Assembly: GCA_017940545.1 (NCBI GenBank)
Contig: JAGAYI010000025.1
Span: 1 to 45,581 of the forward strand
Direction of reading: 5' to 3'
DNA: 45,581 nucleotides
From: Prevotella sp.
GTDB lineage: Bacteria > Bacteroidota > Bacteroidia > Bacteroidales > Bacteroidaceae
A model generated the notes under the pieces. It did not search any database and was not told where the DNA came from. It worked only from the letters and a program-made list of their open reading frames with translations. Shown piece after piece: positions 35,118-45,184 of this stretch. The first letter of the stretch is position 1. Each line of letters opens with the position of its first letter. A program made the translations under genes and the position numbers.

Positions 35118-36936
35118 CATCATCCAATTGCTTCCAGACTCCGTGGCCAACCAGATTGCTGCTGGCGAGGTCATACAGCGGCCGGCTTCTGTTATTAAGG
35201 AACTGGTGGAAAATGCTATTGACGCTGGGGCAACAACGATAAATGTGCTGGTGGTCGATGCTGGACGAACCTCTATCCAGGTGATAGACGATGGACGGGG
35301 AATGTCCGAAACGGACGCACGACTGGCATTTGAACGCCATGCCACATCGAAAATAAAAAAGGCCGACGACCTCTTTAACCTGCACACCATGGGCTTCCGT
35401 GGTGAGGCTCTTGCATCTATAGCTGCCGTGGCACAGGTGGAGCTTCGGACGAGAATGGCTGATAATGAGGTGGGCACGCTACTCACCATCTCTGGCTCAC
35501 GCGTCGTGGGGCAGGAACCGGTTTCTTGTCCCGTGGGAAGTAATTTCAAGGTTGAGAACCTCTTTTTTAATGTTCCCGCACGTCGTAAGTTCCTCAAGAC
35601 GAATGCGACGGAACTGAATAATATCATGGTGGCTTTCGAGCGGATAGTACTCGTCTATCCAAACATCAACTTTACACTTCATAGCAATGGCTCAGAATTG
35701 CTGAACCTGAAAGCAGGAAGCCTGCGACAGCGAGTAAGTGAAGTGTTCGGAAAACGTTTCTCACAGGAAATCCTACCTGTAGAGGTTGATACTGCCATGT
35801 GTCGCATAACGGGGTTTGTAGGGAAACCGGAAGCAGCTCGGAAAAAAAACGCACATGAATATTTCTTCGTGAATGGACGCTATATGAAACATGCTTACTT
35901 CCATAAGGCGGTACAAAGTGCTTACGACCGTATTGTGCCGGTAGGTATGCAGGTACCTTATTTAATCTACTTTGAGGTAAGTCCGGCGGATATTGATGTT
36001 AACATACACCCGACGAAGACAGAAATCAAATTCGAGAATGAACAGGCCATCTGGCAAATCCTCGTTGCTGCCGTGCGCGATGCTGTCGGAAAGTTTTGTG
36101 AAGTACCGTCCATTGACTTCGATACGGAAGGAAAACCGGAAATCCCTCTGTATGACCCGCAAAGACAAGTCGCTCCGCCTAATCCGAAATATAATGCATC
36201 TTACAACCCCTTCAGGGAGCATCATGAGAGCCGTTCCTCGGTGCCTGCTGACTGGCAACAGCTCTATGAGGGCTTGCAGCCGGATGCAGAACAGCAAAAT
36301 TTATTCGTTGACGCTTCATCAGCATCACCATGGGAGAGGGTAGGGGCAGAAACTCTTCATGCCATAGAAGAAAAGTCACCTATACACTATCAGTATAAGG
36401 CCACATATATCATGACGGCTGTGAAGTCTGGACTGATGATTATTGACCAGTATCGGGCTGACCTCAGGTTTCTCTACGAACGCTATAGAGAGCAACTGCG
36501 TAACCATACGGGGAAATCGCAGCGCGTGCTCTTTCCTGAAGTAGTGCAGTTTGCCCCTTCTGAAACGATACTCTTGGAACGCCTTGCTCCCGAACTGGAA
36601 GCAATGGGCTTTGAACTCTCTGACTTGGGAAAGAACTCCTATGCGGTCAATGGCATACCTGCTGGCATTGAAGGTATCGACTTTGTCAGTCTCTTGCAGA
36701 ACATGGTTGCTGAGGCTGCAGAGTTGACTGCCGGTGCAAAGGATGAGATAGAGCATACCCTGGCATTAAGTATGGCGCGTTCTGCAGCCATCCCTCATGG
36801 TCAGATCCTCTCAAATGAAGAAATGGAGTCGGTAGTAAACCGTCTTTTTGCCTGTTCAAATGTCAATTACACACCTGACGGGAAACCCATTCTTACTATT
36901 TTACCGCAACATGACATAGAACAGCTCCTTTCATGA
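35110..36936 (+). CDS. mutL: DNA mismatch repair protein MutL
   Basis: 608 residues from ATG 35110 ([21 protein letters not shown]), which overlaps the end of the OstA-like gene by 8 nt. GHKL ATPase motifs: [31 protein letters not shown]. The C-terminal dimerisation domain is present. Where endonuclease-type MutL proteins have DQHA(x)2E(x)4E, this one reads [14 protein letters not shown] (residues 446-459), so the metal-site motif is changed at the His. It couples MutS recognition to downstream repair. Last gene of the guaB run. Confidence 0.95.
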
Positions 36937-37046
36937 AGATGAATACATCCACCTCCCTTCCCGTCGCTTTGTCCTTGCAATGTTCTTGCTCCGTTTCCCC
37001 TCCGTTTCCTCTCCGTTTCTTCTCCGTCTTCATTTTTTTTATTGGT

Positions 37047-37072
37047 TCTGTACGCTGAGGCTTTGCCTTGGT
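37047..37072 (+). repeat. Degenerate palindromic mini-element upstream of the OMP gene
   Basis: Head TCTGTAC, arm GCTGAGGC (37054-37061), loop TTT, arm GCCTTGGT (37065-37072). In RNA all eight pairs form, three of them G-U. It is preceded by TCCGTTTC-type pyrimidine repeats (36985-37031) and ends 18 nt before the ATG of the next gene, so it would sit in that gene's leader. No standard -7 box is visible for that gene. Confidence 0.65.
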
Positions 37073-37090
37073 CCTAAAAAACAAACAGAT

Positions 37091-37807
37091 ATGAAAAAGT
37101 TATTAATATCCCTTCTACTGGTCTTTTCCGTAATGACCGTTGTTGCACAGGAAGACGCACAAGGTGCGTCGCCTGTTGAGCGCCATAGTGTGTCAACCAA
37201 TCCCTTTTTTAGTAACTGGTTCTTGCAGGCAAACTTTGGTGGAAATGTCAATTACGACAACAACTTGGGCTTCTCCGTAGCTATAGGTAAATGGTTTACC
37301 CCAGGAATAGGACTGCGTACAAAGTATAGTATTTCGCGTTATAATATTCTTTCTGAGCATGTCCTGTTCAATCTCAGCAACATGTTCTACGGATATAATG
37401 ACCGTCGCGTGTGGAGTCTCATCCCTTACGTCGGTGCGGGTTGGCGGAAACTCAAGGCGGAAGACCATCATGCCTTTGGCTATACCCTCGGACTTTGGAA
37501 CCGTTTTCGCGTCAGTCGTAAGATAGCCTTGAATGTGGATGTCTCTTATGGCGTTTTCCAACGTACTTCCAAAGATCGTATGCTGAACATGGAAGTTGGC
37601 TTGACGTATAGCATCGGTAGTGGTACATGGGGTAGGACACCGAACTTGGATGCTGTCCATGCTTTATATGAGTCGGAGATTGATGCTCTTAATGCCCAGT
37701 TGCAGGATGCCTATTCAGAGAATGATGAGTTACGTCGCGAGTTGGAGCAGCGTTCCTCTTCCTCTTCTCCTTCTACAAGTGGTGACATGTCATCACCAGT
37801 AGAATAG
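37091..37807 (+). CDS. OmpA-type outer-membrane barrel protein lacking the C-terminal OmpA domain
   Basis: 238 residues from ATG 37091. The signal peptide is MKKLLISLLLVFSVMTVVAQ. Residues ~35-190 look like an eight-stranded barrel (NWFLQANFGGNVNYDNNLGFSVAIGKWFTPGIGLRTKYS, WSLIPYVGAGWRKL, KIALNVDVSYGVFQ). A short coiled coil follows (ALYESEIDALNAQLQDAYSENDELRRELEQR). Related Prevotella/Bacteroides OmpA-family proteins continue after this helix into a peptidoglycan-binding OmpA domain; here the protein ends in a Ser-rich tail (SSSSSPSTSGDMSSPVE). The tail DNA is pyrimidine rich like the tracts next to the mini-elements, and three copies of the element start 15 nt after the stop. Truncation by repeat insertion is likely but not proven. 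Confidence 0.8.
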   Translation: MKKLLISLLLVFSVMTVVAQEDAQGASPVERHSVSTNPFFSNWFLQANFGGNVNYDNNLGFSVAIGKWFTPGIGLRTKYSISRYNILSEHVLFNLSNMFYGYNDRRVWSLIPYVGAGWRKLKAEDHHAFGYTLGLWNRFRVSRKIALNVDVSYGVFQRTSKDRMLNMEVGLTYSIGSGTWGRTPNLDAVHALYESEIDALNAQLQDAYSENDELRRELEQRSSSSSPSTSGDMSSPVE

Positions 37808-37821
37808 TCTTGAGGCATGGT

Positions 37822-37938
37822 CCTGTATGCTGCGGTTTTGCCGCAGCCCCTTTCCCTTCTTGTCAGTCCTGTATGTTGCGGTTTTGCCGCAGCCCCTTTC
37901 CTTCTTGTCAGTCCTGTATGCTGCGGCTTTGCCGCAGC
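37822..37938 (+). repeat. Three tandem copies of the palindromic mini-element
   Basis: Copies at 37822-37847, 37868-37893 and 37913-37938 repeat with a 45-46-bp period, separated by CCCCTTTCC-CTTCTTGTCAGT. Each has head CCTGTAT, an 8-nt arm, loop TTT and an 8-nt arm: GCTGCGGT, GTTGCGGT and GCTGCGGC, each against GCCGCAGC. The differences are either wobble-tolerant or fully paired. No gene is visible in 37808-38046 apart from these and the tRNA promoter. Confidence 0.85.
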
Positions 37939-37994
37939 CTCACCGCCAGCTTTCCCTTTCTTTTTCCCTTCCATACAAAAAAGTTGCTCAAAAA

Positions 37995-38026
37995 TTTGGC
38001 GGTTTCCGGGAAAAGCATTACCTTTG
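37995..38026 (+). promoter_or_regulatory. Promoter of tRNA-Val copy 1
   Basis: TTTG at 37995-37998, a 20-nt spacer and TACCTTTG at 38019-38026, about 21 nt before the mature tRNA. Confidence 0.8.
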
Positions 38027-38046
38027 CACCCGCTTACTACGAGCAC

Positions 38047-38121
38047 GGGCGCTTAGCTCAGCTGGTTTAGAGCATCTGCCTTACAAGCAGAGGGTCGGGG
38101 GTTCGAATCCCTCAGCGCCCA
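38047..38121 (+). tRNA. tRNA-Val (anticodon UAC), copy 1
   Basis: 75 nt. Acceptor GGGCGCT/AGCGCCC, D arm GCTC/GAGC, anticodon arm TCTGC-CTTACAA-GCAGA with anticodon TAC, T arm GGGGG-TTCGAAT-CCCTC (one G-T pair), discriminator A, CCA not encoded. It reads GUA and related valine codons. The sequence is identical to copy 2 at 40337-40411. Confidence 0.97.
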
Positions 38122-38134
38122 CTCCCGTTTACAA

Positions 38135-38165
38135 AGCTGTGACAATGTCGCGGCTTTTTCTTTTT
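38135..38165 (+). terminator. Terminator of tRNA-Val copy 1
   Basis: AGCTGTGAC (38135-38143), loop AAT, GTCGCGGCT (38147-38155): nine pairs including two T-G, then TTTTCTTTTTC. Confidence 0.85.
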
Positions 38166-38271
38166 CTTCGTTGTCCAATATACAGCTGTCTTTATCTCCG
38201 TTCCCATGCAAAAAGTGTCGCTGTTTAACTCCTTTTAACTACATTATCTCCGTTTACTCCCTAAAAAGATG

Positions 38272-38279
38272 TAACTTTG
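38272..38279 (+). promoter_or_regulatory. -7 box of the paaK-ACT operon
   Basis: TAACTTTG, 34 nt before the paaK ATG. No clear -33 TTTG is seen. Confidence 0.6.
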
Positions 38280-38313
38280 TACCATCAATACAAACCAACA
38301 CTTACAGAAAACA

Positions 38314-39615
38314 ATGATTTGGAATGAGACAATGGAATGCATGGACCGCGAACAAATGCGCGAGATCCAGAGCAAGAGACTGGTAAAAATGGTGGAATAT
38401 GTTTATCATAATACACCTTTTTACCGTAAGAAATTTCAGGAGATGGGCCTTGAACCTGGCGATGTGAAGAGTATTGATGACATCGTCAAACTGCCGTTTA
38501 CGAATAAACTTGACCTGCGCGACAACTATCCTTTTGGTCTGGCTGCTGTGCCGATGAGTCAGATAGTGCGTATTCATGCCTCAAGTGGAACAACAGGAAA
38601 ACCCGTGGTGGTGCTACATACACGTAAGGATATTGCGATGTGGACGGAAGCAATCTCTCGTGCCTTTACTGCCTATGGAGCTACCAAGGACGACATCTTT
38701 CAGGTAAGTTACGGCTATGGCTTGTTTACCGGTGGCCTGGGTGCTCACGATGGCGCAACGAATATTGGCGCTTCGGTCATACCCATGTCAAGTGGAAATA
38801 CGCAGAAACAAATAACCCTGATGCACGATTTCGGGGCTTCTGTGCTCTGCTGCACTCCCAGTTATGCCATGTTCCTTGGAGAGGCTATGCGTGACAGCGA
38901 GTGGCCACGCGAGGAATTTAGATTGCGTATCGGTGCCTTCGGTGCCGAGCCCTGGACTGAGGAAATGCGTCAGAAGCTGGAAAGCACCATGGGCATTAAG
39001 GCCTACGATATCTATGGACTCTCTGAAATTGCCGGACCTGGTGTCGGCTTCGAGTGTGAACACCAGCATGGCACTCACCTGAATGAAGACTATTTCTATC
39101 CGGAAATATTGAACCCGGAAACAGGCGAACCCATGCCCGAGGGCGAGTTGGGCGAACTGACATTTACTCACCTCACCAAGGAAGGCATGCCCTTGCTGCG
39201 CTATCGTACCCACGACCTTACCGCCTTGCATTATGAAAAGTGTGCTTGTGGACGTACCCTTGTTCGTATGGATCGCATCCTCGGCCGTTGCGACGATATG
39301 CTCATCATCCGTGGCGTCAATGTCTTCCCGTCACAAATTGAGGCTGTCATTCTCTCGCTGCCAGAGTATGAGCCACACTTCCTCCTGACTGTCGATCGTG
39401 TCAACAATACTGACACCAGCGAACTGAAGGTGGAGGTTAAGGAAGACTACTTCACTGACGACATGGCTACCATGGTCGGCTTGCAGAAAAAGTTGGAGGC
39501 TGAACTGCGCTCTGTCATCGGCTTGGGATTCAAGGTGAAACTGGTGGAGCCTAAGGGCATTGAGCGTTCAACTGGCAAGGCACGTCGTGTCATCGATAAC
39601 CGTAAGTTCCAGTAA
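38314..39615 (+). CDS. paaK: Phenylacetate-CoA ligase (PaaK type)
   Basis: 433 residues. The AMP-binding signature is IHASSGTTGKPVVVLHT; YGLSEIAGPGVGFEC, YRTHDLTALH and MLIIRGVNVFPSQIE follow in the order of PaaK proteins. The C-terminal domain ends in STGKARRVIDNR with the catalytic-type Lys. It activates an aryl acetate (phenylacetate or indoleacetate) to its CoA ester via an acyl-AMP. No aerobic paa genes are nearby. In anaerobic gut bacteria this enzyme is usually paired with oxidation of aromatic amino acids, and the following ACT-domain gene supports an amino-acid link. Confidence 0.93.
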   Translation: MIWNETMECMDREQMREIQSKRLVKMVEYVYHNTPFYRKKFQEMGLEPGDVKSIDDIVKLPFTNKLDLRDNYPFGLAAVPMSQIVRIHASSGTTGKPVVVLHTRKDIAMWTEAISRAFTAYGATKDDIFQVSYGYGLFTGGLGAHDGATNIGASVIPMSSGNTQKQITLMHDFGASVLCCTPSYAMFLGEAMRDSEWPREEFRLRIGAFGAEPWTEEMRQKLESTMGIKAYDIYGLSEIAGPGVGFECEHQHGTHLNEDYFYPEILNPETGEPMPEGELGELTFTHLTKEGMPLLRYRTHDLTALHYEKCACGRTLVRMDRILGRCDDMLIIRGVNVFPSQIEAVILSLPEYEPHFLLTVDRVNNTDTSELKVEVKEDYFTDDMATMVGLQKKLEAELRSVIGLGFKVKLVEPKGIERSTGKARRVIDNRKFQ

Positions 39616-39663
39616 TATCATAACTCCTGTAATAGCTGTAAAACTATAGAAACTATAAAAAAT

Positions 39664-40089
39664 ATGAAAGCAAAACAATTATCCGTATTCCTTGAGAATA
39701 AATCAGGGCGTCTTACCGAGGTCGCCGAGGTGTTGGGCGAAGCTGGCATCAATCTTTCTGCCATGAGCATAGCAGATAATTCTGATTTCGGCATCCTGCG
39801 CTGCATCGTCAGTGATCCTGACAAAGCTTACCGGGTGTTGAAAGAGGCTCATTTTGCCGTAAAGATTACCGATGTCATTGGCTTTACCTGTCCAAACACG
39901 AGCGGTTCCTTGTCAAAGGTCCTTAGGCACCTTTCTGACAAGGGGGTATTCATTGAGTACATGTATTCTTTCGCAAACGGCGACGTGGCGCATGTCATTA
40001 TACGTCCGACAGACCTGGACAATTGTGACAAGATACTTGCAGAAAAGGAAGTTGACCTCTTAGCTGCCAGCGATCTTTACCGGCTCTGA
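39664..40089 (+). CDS. Tandem ACT-domain protein
   Basis: 141 residues made of two ACT-like domains: KQLSVFLENKSGRLTEVAEVLGEAGINLSAMSIAD (1-70) and GFTCPNTSGSLSKVLRHLSDKGVFIEYMYSF (~75-141). ACT domains bind amino acids and usually regulate enzymes. It stands 48 nt after paaK, and this pairing suggests it senses an aromatic amino acid or product and modulates the ligase or its supply. No enzyme domain is attached. Confidence 0.9.
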   Translation: MKAKQLSVFLENKSGRLTEVAEVLGEAGINLSAMSIADNSDFGILRCIVSDPDKAYRVLKEAHFAVKITDVIGFTCPNTSGSLSKVLRHLSDKGVFIEYMYSFANGDVAHVIIRPTDLDNCDKILAEKEVDLLAASDLYRL

Positions 40090-40095
40090 ACCTGT

Positions 40096-40183
40096 CGTTC
40101 AGTCATCGGTCGTTCAGTCATCGGTCGTTTGTCTTCGGCTGTCTGTCTTCGGCTGTCTGTCTTCGGCTGTCCCATCTTCGGCT
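40096..40183 (+). repeat. Tandem 15-bp and 14-bp repeats
   Basis: CGTTCAGTCATCGGT occurs twice (40096-40125), then GTCTGTCTTCGGCT-type units run from about 40131 to 40183 (two perfect, others variant). They sit directly upstream of a mini-element and end close to a run of ten Cs at 40244-40253. Coding is not apparent. Confidence 0.75.
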
Positions 40184-40189
40184 GTCTGT

Positions 40190-40215
40190 TCTGTATGCTG
40201 CGGCTTTGCCGCAGC
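40190..40215 (+). repeat. Palindromic mini-element before tRNA-Val copy 2
   Basis: Head TCTGTAT, arm GCTGCGGC, loop TTT, arm GCCGCAGC. It is identical to copy 37913-37938 except for the first base. The sequence after it also parallels that copy (CTCAYYGCCAG), so element and tRNA were probably duplicated as one block. Confidence 0.85.
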
Positions 40216-40284
40216 CTCATTGCCAGTTTTGCCAGTTTTGCCTCCCCCCCCCCTGCCGCCCTCTCGTAAAAAATTGCCTAAAAA

Positions 40285-40316
40285 TTTGGCGGTTTCGTGG
40301 AAAAGTATTACCTTTG
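40285..40316 (+). promoter_or_regulatory. Promoter of tRNA-Val copy 2
   Basis: TTTG at 40285-40288, a 20-nt spacer and TACCTTTG at 40309-40316, nearly identical to the promoter of copy 1. Confidence 0.8.
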
Positions 40317-40336
40317 CACTCGCTTACTACGAGTAC

Positions 40337-40411
40337 GGGCGCTTAGCTCAGCTGGTTTAGAGCATCTGCCTTACAAGCAGAGGGTCGGGGGTTCGAATCC
40401 CTCAGCGCCCA
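40337..40411 (+). tRNA. tRNA-Val (anticodon UAC), copy 2
   Basis: 75 nt, the same sequence as 38047-38121 with anticodon TAC. The upstream promoter and the first 14 nt downstream (ACTCCCGTTTACAA) are also shared; the terminators differ. Confidence 0.97.
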
Positions 40412-40423
40412 CTCCCGTTTACA

Positions 40424-40451
40424 ATGCCGTGGCCCTGCCACGGCATTTTTT
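40424..40451 (+). terminator. Terminator of tRNA-Val copy 2
   Basis: ATGCCGTGGC (40424-40433), loop CCT, GCCACGGCAT (40437-40446), then TTTTT. A perfect 10-bp stem. Confidence 0.9.
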
Positions 40452-40536
40452 GTTCCCTTTTTGTTAAATATCCCCAAAAACGTGGCGTGACTTAAAAACA
40501 CTTGCACTTCGTTTCTTGTAATTCTAAACTTTTTTG

Positions 40537-40544
40537 TATCTTTG
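40537..40544 (+). promoter_or_regulatory. -7 box of purB
   Basis: TATCTTTG with a CTTG 18 nt upstream (40515-40518) as a possible -33. Transcription would start near 40551, which excludes the upstream in-frame start at 40502 and selects ATG 40589. Confidence 0.7.
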
Positions 40545-40588
40545 CGGTCTCAAAAAGAGATGCTTCAATAATAAGGATAAGGAAAGTA

Positions 40589-42004
40589 ATGAAATTAGAT
40601 GAATTAACAGCCATTTCGCCTATTGATGGTCGCTATCGTAACAAAACAGAACAGTTAGCAGGTTTTTTTTCTGAATATGCCCTCATCAGGTATCGGGTGC
40701 GCGTTGAAATCGAATACTTCATCACGTTGTGTGAGTTACCTTTGCCCCAGCTGGAAAGTTTCGACCACCAGCTGTTTGAACCGTTGCGTGACATCTATCG
40801 GAAGTTTACCGAGCAGGATGCTGCGCGGGTAAAGGAAATCGAGAAGACTACCAACCATGATGTCAAGGCTGTCGAATACTTCATCAAGGAAAAGCTGACT
40901 GGTGTCTCTTCCGCCACTCCCGCTACGGCTTCCGCCACTCCCGCTACGGCTTCCGCCGCTTCCGGTTCCGTATGCTGCGACTGTGTCGCAGCAAAAGAGT
41001 TCATCCACTTCGGCCTCACTTCCCAGGACATTAACAATACCAGCGTCCCTTTGTCCGTCAAAGAATCTCTGGAGCAAGTATATTACCCTCTCATCGAAGA
41101 GCTGATAGAACAACTCAATGACTATGCTGAACAATGGAAGAACGTGCCCATGCTGGCTAAGACGCATGGACAGCCTGCTTCCCCTACGCGTCTCGGAAAA
41201 GAAGTCATGGTCTATGTCTATCGGCTCGAGGAGCAGCTCCGCGCCCTTAAGGACATACCCATAACAGCCAAGTTCGGTGGCGCTACGGGAAATTTCAACG
41301 CCCATCATGTCGCCTACCCGCAATATGACTGGCGGGAGATCGGAAATGCTTTTGTCAGTGAAAAACTTGGTCTGGAACGTGAGCAGTGGACAACGCAAAT
41401 CAGTAACTATGATTGGCTCGGTGCCATCTTCGATGCCATGCGTCGTATTAATACCATCGTCATCGACCTTGACCGCGACTTCTGGATGTATATCTCCATG
41501 GAGTACTTCAAGCAGAAAATCAAGGCCGGCGAGGTGGGCAGTAGTGCCATGCCCCACAAGGTCAATCCCATCGATTTCGAAAACTCTGAGGGAAATCTGG
41601 GCATCGCAAATGCCATCCTTCAGTTCCTGGCACAGAAATTGCCCGTCAGCCGCTTGCAGCGTGACCTCACCGACTCTACGGTGCTCCGCAACGTCGGCGT
41701 TCCTATGGGACATGCGCTCATCGCTTTCCAGAGTACACTGAAAGGCCTGCGGAAACTCATCCTCAATGAAGAGAAACTGCATGCCGACCTTGAAAATACT
41801 TGGGCGGTCGTCGCTGAGGCTATTCAGACCATCCTGCGCCGTGAAGCGTATCCCAACCCCTACGAGGCGTTGAAGGCACTCACCCGTACCAACCAGCACA
41901 TGACGGAAGAGACCATCCATGCTTTCATTCAGAATCTCGAAGTCAGTGACGACGTGAAACAGGAACTGCTGGCCATCACACCCTGGAACTACACCGGCAT
42001 CTGA
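40589..42004 (+). CDS. purB: Adenylosuccinate lyase with an in-frame repeat insertion
   Basis: 471 residues from ATG 40589 (MKLDELTAISPIDGRYRNKT); Bacteroidales homologues are near 448. The lyase signature is SSAMPHKVNPIDFENSEGN, and KTHGQPASPTRLGKE and TSQDINNT are in place. It splits adenylosuccinate and SAICAR in purine synthesis. Residues 107-135 (SSATPATASATPATASAASG then SVCCDCVAA) interrupt the normally conserved path from the NHDVKAVEYFIKEK helix to KEFIHFGLTSQD. The insert contains two copies of a 21-bp repeat and one palindromic mini-element (40967-40992). Frame and active-site motifs are intact, so the enzyme should be functional with a surface loop. Confidence 0.96.
   Translation: MKLDELTAISPIDGRYRNKTEQLAGFFSEYALIRYRVRVEIEYFITLCELPLPQLESFDHQLFEPLRDIYRKFTEQDAARVKEIEKTTNHDVKAVEYFIKEKLTGVSSATPATASATPATASAASGSVCCDCVAAKEFIHFGLTSQDINNTSVPLSVKESLEQVYYPLIEELIEQLNDYAEQWKNVPMLAKTHGQPASPTRLGKEVMVYVYRLEEQLRALKDIPITAKFGGATGNFNAHHVAYPQYDWREIGNAFVSEKLGLEREQWTTQISNYDWLGAIFDAMRRINTIVIDLDRDFWMYISMEYFKQKIKAGEVGSSAMPHKVNPIDFENSEGNLGIANAILQFLAQKLPVSRLQRDLTDSTVLRNVGVPMGHALIAFQSTLKGLRKLILNEEKLHADLENTWAVVAEAIQTILRREAYPNPYEALKALTRTNQHMTEETIHAFIQNLEVSDDVKQELLAITPWNYTGI
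40967..40992 (+). repeat. Palindromic mini-element inside purB
   Basis: Head TCCGTAT, arm GCTGCGAC (40974-40981), loop TGT, arm GTCGCAGC (40985-40992). A G-C pair of the intergenic copies is replaced by A-T on both sides, keeping the stem perfect. It is read in frame as SVCCDCVAA. Confidence 0.9.
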
Positions 42005-42066
42005 CCGTGAAATTTTGAATAATTGACAGCACAATACACCAAATAATAATACTATATATATAATAA

Positions 42067-42078
42067 GTACGCGCGTAC
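42067..42078. promoter_or_regulatory. Perfect 12-bp palindrome upstream of the RluB-type gene
   Basis: GTACGCGCGTAC lies in an otherwise very AT-rich gap, just after TATATATATAATAA. It is 43 nt before the ATG. No TAnnTTTG box is present in 42005-42120, so this may be a regulator or structure site, or the gene may be read from purB. Confidence 0.5.
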
Positions 42079-42120
42079 ATTAATATAATAACAAAAATCA
42101 GCCGTGAGGCTTAAAAAGAA

Positions 42121-43557
42121 ATGGAGAGTAAAACTATGGAATTTGAAAATGAAGTAAGACAAGACGAACAGTCTGTAGAACAGAACACTGGAAACCGAGA
42201 AGGCTATCAACCAAACCAGAATGGCTATCAGAGCTATCGTCCGGTTGGGCGCACACCGCGTCCACGCATTCAGAAACCGCGTCCCTACAATCAGGACCGT
42301 GGCAGTTACAACCATCGCTATCAGAACGACGAGGAGGGATTCCGCCCCGAAGGCTTCGGGGCTGCCCTGCAGCAGCAGGGTGGGCAGCCACAGCGTGGCG
42401 GCTATCGTCCTCGCTACAATAATAATGAGGGAAATAGTGAGGACGGCTACCAGCCCCGTGGCGGCTATCAGCCCCGTAATGACTACCAGCAGCGTGGTGG
42501 TTATCAGCCCCGCAACAACTACAACAATGCACAGCGTCCCCATCAGGGATACCGTCCTCGTTACAACAATAATGAAGAAGGCGGCTACAACCAGCAGCGT
42601 TCCTATCAGGGCTATCAGCCTCGTGGCGGCTACCAGCAGCGTGGTGGCTACCAGCAGCGCGGTGGCTATCAGGCTCGCGGCGGAAATGGCGAATTCCAGC
42701 CCCGCGGCGGCTACCAGCAGCGTGGCGGCTATAACAAGCGACCCGGCGGATTCCGTCCCCGTACGGCAGATTACGATCCCAATGCAAAGTACAGCATGAA
42801 GAAGCGTATCGAGTACAAGGAGGAAAATTACGATCCCAACGAGCCCCTGCGTCTGAACAAGTTCCTCGCCAATGCTGGCGTTTGCAGCCGTCGTGAGGCT
42901 GACGAGTTCATCCAGGCAGGTGTCGTCACCGTCAACGGTGAGGTGGTTACCGAATTGGGCAGCAAGGTGCTTCGTACCGACGAGGTACGTTTCCACGACC
43001 AACCCGTTAACCTCGAGAAGAAAGTCTATGTGCTGCTCAACAAACCCAAGGACTACGTCACTACCAGCGACGACCCCCAACAGCGCAAGACGGTCATGGA
43101 TCTCGTCAAGGGTGCATGCCCCGAGCGCATTTATCCCGTAGGTCGCCTCGACCGTAACACCACCGGTGTCCTCCTGCTGACAAACGATGGTGACCTTGCT
43201 TCGAAACTCACCCATCCGAAGTTCCTCAAGAAGAAAATCTATCACGTTTATCTCGACAAGAACGTGACAGCCCACGACCTCCAGCAGATTGCCGAGGGTA
43301 TTCAGCTCGAGGACGGCGAGATCAAGGCCGACGATGTCCAGTATGCTGATGCCGTTGACAAGAAACAGGTGGGCATCGAGATACATTCTGGCAAGAACCG
43401 TATCGTACGACGTATCTTTGAGAGCCTCGGCTACAAAGTCGTCAAGCTCGACCGTGTGCAGTTCGCCGGACTCACCAAGAAGAACCTTCGCCGTGGTGAC
43501 TGGCGTTACCTCACCGAGGAAGAGGTTGATCGTCTTCGCATGGGAGCCTACGAGTAA
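42121..43557 (+). CDS. RluB-type 23S rRNA pseudouridine synthase with long RG/GGYQ-rich N-terminus
   Basis: 478 residues. Residues ~20-220 are a low-complexity region rich in Arg, Gly, Tyr and Gln with repeats such as QQRGGYQ, QPRGGYQ and RPRYNNNE. An S4 RNA-binding domain follows (LRLNKFLANAGVCSRREADEFIQAGVVTVNG), then the RsuA/RluB synthase domain with the catalytic Asp in YPVGRLDRNTTGVLLLTNDGDL and GKNRIVRRIFESLGY. It isomerises a uridine in 23S rRNA (or 16S, if RsuA-like). RG-rich extensions occur in Bacteroidetes RluB-type proteins and probably bind RNA. A second ATG at 42136 is possible. Confidence 0.92.
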   Translation: MESKTMEFENEVRQDEQSVEQNTGNREGYQPNQNGYQSYRPVGRTPRPRIQKPRPYNQDRGSYNHRYQNDEEGFRPEGFGAALQQQGGQPQRGGYRPRYNNNEGNSEDGYQPRGGYQPRNDYQQRGGYQPRNNYNNAQRPHQGYRPRYNNNEEGGYNQQRSYQGYQPRGGYQQRGGYQQRGGYQARGGNGEFQPRGGYQQRGGYNKRPGGFRPRTADYDPNAKYSMKKRIEYKEENYDPNEPLRLNKFLANAGVCSRREADEFIQAGVVTVNGEVVTELGSKVLRTDEVRFHDQPVNLEKKVYVLLNKPKDYVTTSDDPQQRKTVMDLVKGACPERIYPVGRLDRNTTGVLLLTNDGDLASKLTHPKFLKKKIYHVYLDKNVTAHDLQQIAEGIQLEDGEIKADDVQYADAVDKKQVGIEIHSGKNRIVRRIFESLGYKVVKLDRVQFAGLTKKNLRRGDWRYLTEEEVDRLRMGAYE

Positions 43558-43645
43558 AGGCTCCTTCCTATATACCTATAGTGTCTATAGTATCTGTAAT
43601 ATCTATAATACCCAAAATAAACTATTTCAATAGTTCCTGTAAAAA

Positions 43646-45184
43646 ATGAAACGAATAAAAATAGCCGACATCCTCAAGTCAACTGATTACGGAAAAGAAG
43701 TCTGTGTCAAAGGCTGGGTGCGCACTCATCGCTCGTCAAAGGCCGTTGACTTCATCGCACTCAACGATGGCTCGACCATCAAGAACGTTCAGGTTGTCGT
43801 TGAACCCGAAAACTGTCCTGTATGCGGAGACTCCGTCTCCGCCCCCTCTCTCAAGGACATTACCACCGGTTCCTGCATTTCCGTCATAGGCACCCTCGTG
43901 GAGTCCCCGGCAGCAGGCCAGCCCTCAGAGGTCCAGGCCAAGGAGATTGAAATCTACGGCCTCTGCGACAATACCTACCCCATGCAGAAAAAAGGCCAGT
44001 CCTTCGAGGTCATGCGTAAGAATGCCCACATGCGTCTCCGCACCAATACGTTCGGAGCTGTCATGCGCATCCGTCATAACATGGCCATGGCCATTCACAC
44101 CTATTTCCATGAGCATGGCTTCTACTACTTCCACACCCCGCTCATCACTGCCAGCGACTGTGAGGGCGCAGGCAACATGTTCCAAGTTACCACCAAGAAC
44201 CTCTATGACCTGAAGAAAGACGAGAACGGAAAAATCATCTACGACGACGACTTCTTCGGCGAACAGACATCACTCACCGTCAGCGGACAGCTCGAAGGTG
44301 AGCTCGGAGCAACAGCCCTCGGTGCTATCTACACCTTCGGACCCACCTTCCGCGCCGAGAACAGCAACACGCCGCGTCACCTCGCGGAGTTCTGGATGGT
44401 TGAGCCCGAGGTGGCCTTCCTCGACCAGGAAGGACTCATGGATCTCGAAGAAGACTTTATTAAATATTGTGTGCGTTGGGCACTCGACAACTGCAAGGAC
44501 GACCTTGAGTTCCTCAATAAGATGATCGACAAGACGCTCCTTGCTCGCCTCGAAGGCGTACTAAAGGAAACCTTCGTCCGTTTGCCCTATACTGAAGGTA
44601 TCAACATCCTTCAGCAGGCCATCCGAGACGGGCACCACTTTGAGTTCCCCTGCAACTGGGGTGACGACCTGGCAAGCGAACACGAGCGCTACCTCGTAGA
44701 GGAGCACTTCAAGAAGCCGGTCATCATGACCGACTACCCCTCTGCCATCAAGTCCTTCTACATGAAGCAGAACGCACCCGTTCCCGCTTCCACTTCTTGT
44801 GGTTCCGCTTCCATTTCTTCCGCTTCCTCTCCCGCCGGTCCTGTATGCGGAGGCTCCGCCTCCGCCGTTCCTTCGGTAGGCTATCGTGGCGCTGTGGCTC
44901 CCGGCCCCACCATGCAAGGCACCGACGTCCTATTCCCCCAGATAGGAGAAATCATTGGCGGTTCCGTTCGTGAGGAAAGCTACGAGAAACTGATGAACGA
45001 GGTCACCAGCCGGAAAATGGACACCACCCACCTTTGGTGGTATCTTGACACCCGCCGTTGGGGCACCTGTCCGCATGCCGGTTTCGGCCTGGGCTTCGAG
45101 CGCCTCATCCTCTTCGTCACAGGTATGCAGAACATCCGCGACGTCATCCCGTTCCCAAGAACGCCGAAGAATGCTGAGTTCTAA
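43646..45184 (+). CDS. asnS: Asparaginyl-tRNA synthetase with two in-frame repeat insertions
   Basis: 512 residues, about 45 more than usual (~466). The anticodon-binding OB domain starts [25 protein letters not shown]; class II motifs are complete ([66 protein letters not shown]). It charges tRNA-Asn. Two foreign stretches are present: residues ~57-67 ([11 protein letters not shown]) and ~377-424 ([20 protein letters not shown], then [17 protein letters not shown], then [12 protein letters not shown]). Each contains one palindromic mini-element. The second stretch replaces a short loop between FYMKQN and the conserved [14 protein letters not shown]. Frame is open throughout. Confidence 0.96.
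43817..43842 (+). repeat. Palindromic mini-element inside asnS (first)
   Basis: Head CCTGTAT, arm GCGGAGAC (43824-43831), loop TCC, arm GTCTCCGC (43835-43842), in frame as PVCGDSVSA. There is no long pyrimidine tract before it, so this may be the minimal form. Confidence 0.88.
44840..44865 (+). repeat. Palindromic mini-element inside asnS (second)
   Basis: Head CCTGTAT, arm GCGGAGGC (44847-44854), loop TCC, arm GCCTCCGC (44858-44865), in frame as PVCGGSASA. It differs from the first asnS copy by a paired change (GAC/GTC to GGC/GCC). It is preceded by TTCCGCTTCC-type pyrimidine repeats (44780-44833). Confidence 0.9.

Follow-up and report, generated by a model that had tools for sequence, protein, structure and literature searches.

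A REP-like hairpin family in Prevotella, probably served by a RAYT transposase with a DprA-like domain

The window analyzed here, a 45,581-nucleotide contig of Prevotella sp. (JAGAYI010000025.1, assembly GCA_017940545.1), carries eight copies of a short DNA hairpin that a first-pass annotation, made from the letters alone, had described as a family of palindromic mini-elements. The hairpin family is real and is best placed as a variant of the kind formed by REP (repetitive extragenic palindromic) elements and RAYTs (REP-associated tyrosine transposases). It is not a canonical GTAG REP, and we do not file it as one because its foot, the tetranucleotide beside the stem, is hardly ever GT[AG]G at RAYT loci. 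Given that such hairpins lie in and around RAYT genes of relatives, the family looks like a new branch of REP-element systems. We consider it very likely that the hairpins form a population of REP-like elements on which a transposase combining a RAYT with a fused DprA-like domain acts or once acted.

RAYT-like genes: The annotation had proposed a search for a REP-type Y1 transposase, and the window's own genome (G000, a 2.2 Mb assembly in 65 contigs, 70.5% complete) holds four RAYT-like gene copies, on contigs C16, C38, C48, and C44, together with a C-terminal remnant on C3. The open reading frames (ORFs) on C16, C38, and C48 match the NCBIfam REP-associated tyrosine transposase and contain a hairpin between their MPDHxHG and YLxxNP motifs. 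The transposase motifs read DH[ILF]H, LW[EA] or LF, and YLxxNP, and the HuH and catalytic Y motifs lie on a predicted IS200/RAYT fold. The C-terminal DprA-like domain spans ~140 residues, giving the protein a predicted two-domain organization, and its modeled fold resembles the ShosA/DprA family, of Rossmann type. The link to DprA comes from weak sequence matches in the PDB (E 0.31) and a fold search; Pfam returned no named domain common to the C-terminal parts of the RAYT proteins, and PHROGs gave no match for two of these proteins. To our knowledge, no known DprA protein is joined to a Y1 transposase. The closest relatives of the transposase in named genomes come from Prevotella and Prevotellaceae assemblies, many of them ruminant-derived, which makes a rumen Prevotella the probable source of the window; matches from other Bacteroidia are without the C-terminal DprA-like domain. 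The C3 sequence is a 178-residue ORF (L324, 1554-2090) that starts at about the NP of the Y motif and comprises the DprA-like part only; we read it as a remnant, either of a RAYT that lost its front part or of a domain that became independent. A PF01797 match on C33 is a different Y1 transposase (L039, 1033-1923), flanked by inverted GGGGACAGG...CCTGTCCCC repeats that were seen by eye. We set it aside because it has its own GGGGACAGG repeats and its locus gives no hairpin-model match up to E 0.5.

Association of hairpins with RAYT genes: Hairpins lie in and beside RAYT genes across the genus. Thirty RAYT loci were drawn from a genus search, and among the 28 that were parsed a hairpin lies between HuH and Y in 21, outside but within 200 bases in 12, and in either position in 24. 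A further 80 loci came from public genome contigs, whose titles give Prevotella, Prevotellaceae, Bacteroidaceae, Bacteroidales or a broader rank, and in one case Muribaculaceae; the corresponding counts for the 79 parsed loci are 56, 20 (within ~250 bases), and 61. RAYT loci hold 115 hairpin matches in 312,754 bases, against six (three hairpins) in 340,780 bases of control loci, which are asnS, purB, and aminotransferase orthologues with our own loci and the purB copy of genome G032 excluded. Two of the three control hairpins sit at the aminotransferase site, one in G022 and one in G007, and the third is next to asnS in G007. At the level of whole genomes, 169 of 299 in the genus have a RAYT match at E<=1e-15, and 122 have matches at E<=1e-3 to hairpin model R2, whose training copies include two or more that lie within a RAYT gene; the window's genome is counted in both. 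The hairpin is patchy within the genus, and it is near-absent from 24 genomes of other families. Gene and hairpin occur together in 99 genomes, the gene alone in 70, and the hairpin alone in 23 (odds ratio 6.6, Fisher P 4e-13, with phylogeny ignored).

Copies across the genome: The over-representation that the annotation had expected is borne out. A degenerate pattern matches 76 times in the window's genome and its reversed form 27 times, and covariance model R1 gives 35 matches at E<0.011, corresponding to 33 hairpins at 27 sites, as two matches are the same hairpin on the other strand. R1 was built from 19 copies, which match by construction. Loci L032, L033, and L035 and the window copy at 37047 were part of the first alignment and were excluded from that of R1, and L034 and L036 were used in no alignment; L035 turned out to lie inside a RAYT gene. 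Two pattern matches, L005 and L006, appear to be due to chance. ORFs contain 22 of the 27 sites, and the five others (11 hairpins) are intergenic. The genes concerned are purB, asnS (two hairpins), an ileS-like class I synthetase gene, an ABC ATPase gene, and those for a topoisomerase, an M24 peptidase, a phosphoglycerate mutase, a UPF0227 protein, a PurM-like protein, a DegT aminotransferase, PurL, a HemN/HemW-like protein, a GH43 protein, a class V aminotransferase, a second PurL, GltB, an S9 peptidase, and a THUMP-like protein. Hairpins are also found in a GH31 gene, apparently within the signal peptide, in a 279-residue ORF without a Pfam match, and in a RAYT-like gene. A weaker hairpin (E 0.21) lies in the gene for an IPP transferase (MiaA-type). 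Relative to the gene, 15 of the 22 intragenic hairpins are in the same orientation and seven in the opposite one. On the element strand, nine are read in frame 0 (GSVCCDSVAA type) and six in frame 2 (VPSVATESQ type), and on the opposite strand three are in frame 0 and four in frame 2. The third frame, which yields arginine-rich peptides, is used by none of the 22, a restriction with a probability of (2/3)^22, or ~1e-4, under equal frame use. A five-copy tandem array with a period of 49-50 lies between genes at C26:2170-2396 (L008).

The window copies: All eight hairpins lie on the forward strand where the annotation had placed them, and each 8-3-8 stem pairs at 8/8 positions when G-T pairs are counted. 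Seven are clear: folded as single-stranded DNA, they reach -5.7 to -10.9 kcal/mol, and each beats 200/200 shuffles. The eighth (37044..37073), an intergenic copy with a GTAC foot and five Watson-Crick plus three G-T pairs, is marginal, with a weak fold of -2.5 kcal/mol (z -0.72; 37/200 shuffles equally good) and a score of 25.9 bits (E 0.011) under a covariance model built without it. The 8-3-8 design stands; the conserved unit begins two to three bases before the 26-bp extent proposed for the element and reads nGTYCYGTAT, an 8-nt arm, 3 nt, and an 8-nt arm, that is, nGT plus 26 for a total of ~30 bases. Three copies supported by stem, covariance model, and fold (37819..37848, 37865..37894, and 37910..37939) form an intergenic tandem array of period ~45 upstream of a tRNA-Val gene. 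Another intergenic copy (40187..40216), the top match of R1 at 47.9 bits, is preceded by a TGTCTTCGGCTGTC tandem repeat and lies upstream of the second tRNA-Val gene. These two tRNA-Val (TAC) genes (38047-38122 and 40337-40412) are identical and lie within a ~150-base duplicated stretch, each having a hairpin element or array before it and a palindrome with a T-run after it.

The coding copies of the window are in purB and asnS. purB (adenylosuccinate lyase, 40589..42001; PF00206, PF08328) has one in-frame hairpin, in an insert (40908..40993) recognized by its repeat and by the covariance model: a 21-base tandem repeat (40908-40964) is followed by the hairpin (40964-40993), and the insert encodes ...GSVCCDCVAA. 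asnS (asparaginyl-tRNA synthetase, 43646..45181; PF00152, PF01336) has two in-frame hairpins. The first (43814..43843) adds a net seven residues relative to orthologues; the second (44837-44866) ends an insert (44784..44866) that opens with a TTCC-type repeat (44784-44827) and falls within a length-variable loop. As the annotation had described, the three coding copies share one frame, and GGC/GCC versus GAC/GTC differences are paired in purB and in asnS. The pyrimidine-repeat context that it had reported exists but is modest, with pyrimidine fractions of 0.60 upstream and 0.59 downstream of the hairpins against a background of 0.51 (26 of 27 sites); because both flanks are similarly enriched, a strictly upstream association was dropped. 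A loose scan of the window, allowing up to two head mismatches and requiring at least 7/8 stem pairs, gives 17 matches versus one to nine per shuffle (20 shuffles), and the nine beyond the eight copies are chance-like. These nine matches and the fragmented, incomplete assembly could suggest chance palindromes or draft-assembly artefacts. This explanation is almost certainly wrong, because the hairpin recurs across species, in 121 other genomes of the genus, and it is also at odds with the reversed-pattern control and with orthologous sites shared between species.

Occupancy in relatives: Orthologous occupancy was compared systematically at the asnS, purB, and class V aminotransferase loci. At the first asnS site, no insert is present in 29/29 aligned relatives; at the second, the hairpin peptide is missing from the 28 relatives that cover the site, one further relative being truncated. 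The mobile-element reading of the annotation depended on such residues being absent from orthologues and on genome-wide over-representation; with both asnS sites lacking the residues in relatives and the pattern over-represented, it is not refuted and is supported. In purB, one of 29 relatives (G032) has a hairpin, in the same hypervariable loop; because the site lies in such a loop, common descent and repeat insertion are indistinguishable for the two genomes. The purB loop of congeners (e.g., G033, G031, and G022) also contains other low-complexity inserts, with repeats of CTCACCTCT type and of TCTAGCCCA type among them, which shows that protein loops in the genus take up simple repeats as well. 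At the class V aminotransferase site, a hairpin occupies the same place in the window's genome, G022, and G007, whereas the model finds nothing there in the 27 remaining loci of the comparison; in G018, an insert is present without a hairpin match. Four coding sites (topB, class V aminotransferase, M24, and the ABC ATPase gene) are common to two species with gap-free flanks. Counted by eye, a single stem pair differs in both of its bases at three of them, the fourth has a one-sided change to G-T, and 0/32 pairs are broken; a third species adds another two-sided stem change at the aminotransferase site. Selection, renewed copying, and palindrome correction are all compatible with these paired changes.

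The same data bear on the idea that the hairpins are relics of an old REP population, immobile now and maintained by mutation. In quasipalindrome correction, template switching in imperfect palindromes restores pairing; relic stems would be kept in this way, and slippage beside them would make the tandem repeats. Paired stem changes between gap-free flanks (topB, class V aminotransferase, and M24) are what palindrome correction would also give, tandem repeats adjoin several copies, and the RAYT genes of the window's genome include one interrupted by a stop and one reduced to a remnant. Relics alone, however, leave unexplained the asnS sites, which are empty in all relatives examined, and the concentration of hairpins in and beside RAYT genes, although a formerly active system fits the latter. 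We regard relics alone as a rather unlikely account.

A function in RNA or protein, such as translation pausing, transcript stability, termination, or a flexible linker peptide, could draw on the restriction of the encoded peptides to two frames and on the stem pairing kept at the four shared coding sites, which includes amino-acid-altering changes. Such a role is improbable, as both orientations occur and neither asnS site is shared. Of the clear window copies, seven in all, a loose rule for intrinsic terminators accepts one, at 37865 (stem at 37875), and rejects the three in coding DNA, and Rfam finds in window positions 36900-45000 one sub-threshold CRISPR-repeat match, covering one copy; a terminator or a known RNA family is therefore unsupported. 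The DprA-like fold joined to the associated transposase, with copies in coding DNA, also hints at transformation, as DprA is a competence protein, and the hairpins could then be DNA-uptake or other genome-address motifs. Known uptake sequences are near-invariant and number over a thousand copies per genome, whereas 33 hairpins per 2.2 Mb is far under that density and the stems vary in sequence, which makes this account very improbable.

Foot tetranucleotide: As the copies used to train the models are rich in GTAT, feet were surveyed at 110 RAYT loci by a scan for the stem only, without the head motif. The scan finds 189 hairpins, with 4.38 per 10 kb at RAYT loci versus 0.76 in controls. Among their 378 feet, CTAT (51), GTTT (40), GTCT (38), GTAT (34), and CTTT (30) lead, and GTAG and GTGG occur two times and once, respectively. 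Counted per hairpin, GTNT stands on at least one side in 72 and on both sides in 50, GTRG is found in three, and 115 have neither, partly having CTNT. In the window's genome, where one copy per array was tallied and two of the 27 sites were left out, the 25 feet include 13 GTAT, 3 GTAG, 3 GTCT, and 1 GTGG. CGTC is outside the 14 commonest feet at RAYT loci and absent from the 25 own copies. A RAYT-like gene of G014 (L089, C245:3000-5600) contains several hairpins in frame whose foot is the canonical GTAG; this species may keep the ancestral foot.

Known systems: The annotation had named Rickettsia palindromic elements (RPEs) as the closest parallel and REP/RAYT systems as a mechanistic one; the latter proved to be the closer kind. 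RPEs likewise lie in frame inside many protein genes, as the hairpins do at 22 ORF sites, longer RPEs exist, and we know of no RAYT linked to them. RPE-4 and RPE-6 are counted in the CGTC class in PMC3733652, unlike the hairpins tallied here. That paper describes GTAG and CGTC REPs and, in several species, copies that sit in frame within genes. GTAG REPs resemble the present family as multi-copy hairpins of 20-40 bp, dispersed here as 33 copies at 27 sites, with an unpaired tetranucleotide at one end; part of the copies are inserted in frame into genes for housekeeping and repair. They are reported there from Proteobacteria, Cyanobacteria, Chloroflexi, and the PVC group, the Bacteroidetes ones being of the CGTC type, and are mostly intergenic, whereas here the tag differs and 22/27 sites are in ORFs. 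Subclass 2.4 of TnpA-REP (RAYT group 4), as presented in PMC6006769, shares a Y1 HuH transposase, in-frame REPs between HuH and Y inside the tnpA-REP genes, REPs flanking the gene, and hosts that include Bacteroidetes; the two-sided feet found here (GTNT on both sides in 50/189) resemble its 'double foot' REPs. It differs in its GT[AG]G foot, as opposed to mainly [GC]TNT, in its motifs (NH[IFV]H, WQ, and YIxNNP), and in being classed without the core extension that the DprA-like domain represents here; our genome's sites are, moreover, mostly intragenic. These two sources thus already report REPs within genes, RAYT genes included. As far as searches of an open-access library show, what is new is the lineage, its foot, the domain fused to the transposase, and the fact that most sites are coding: the searches, in a library with few subscription papers, gave no account of this hairpin family in Prevotella or of a RAYT-DprA fusion, and the passages available from PMC2817692 and PMC8040213 do not mention the family.

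Proposed mechanism: The hairpins would be ~30-base single-strand REP-like elements whose foot is mainly [GC]TNT, and they would be spread by a lineage of REP-associated Y1 (HuH) transposases that join a RAYT core to a DprA-like domain. Such an enzyme would bind a hairpin when it extrudes from DNA that is single-stranded, as on the lagging strand, select where to cut with the help of the tetranucleotide on the 5' side of the stem, and insert copies at other places. Copies would survive where they are harmless, in intergenic spaces and in protein loops, there in either of the two frames whose peptides are small and polar. According to PMC8266576, the tetranucleotide contributes to cleavage-site choice, and the E. 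coli enzyme requires GTAG while other enzymes partly tolerate changes. For the present family, we infer movement, cleavage, current action of the transposase on the hairpins, and any contribution of the DprA-like domain.

Several observations weigh against service by a RAYT-DprA transposase. The rarity of GT[AG]G feet is one. The evidence for movement is indirect, consisting of species-level comparisons that register net length changes only. At the thresholds used, 70/169 gene-bearing genomes have no hairpin match, 7/28 and 23/79 RAYT genes have no internal one, and 23/122 hairpin-bearing genomes, several of them incomplete assemblies, have no RAYT match; ten of those 23 have at least three hairpins. 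The co-occurrence test takes no account of phylogeny. The RAYT proteins of the window's genome score below the NCBIfam cut-off and match Pfam Y1_Tnp weakly or not at all, and Y1_Tnp matches 17/26 aligned proteins at E<=0.1 (best 8e-4). In addition, the C16 copy has an internal stop and the C3 copy is a remnant, so RAYT activity in this strain is uncertain.

A more specific form of the proposal can be put forward only tentatively: a distinct Prevotella REP system in which a [GC]TNT guide replaces GT[AG]G for a RAYT fused to a DprA-like domain that handles single-stranded DNA, coding DNA of core genes is colonized as readily as spacers because hairpin peptides are harmless in two of three frames, and the fusion would link movement of the REPs to RecA-type recombination or to incoming single-stranded DNA. 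The spread of REPs is still described as poorly understood in PMC8266576. A lineage with a shifted guide, an added DprA-like domain, and mostly in-frame genic sites, many of them in core genes, is a natural experiment on the guide requirement, on a possible role of host recombination, and on the lengthening of protein loops by short insertions. Within the genus, these hairpin elements can also mislead the annotation and alignment of core genes.

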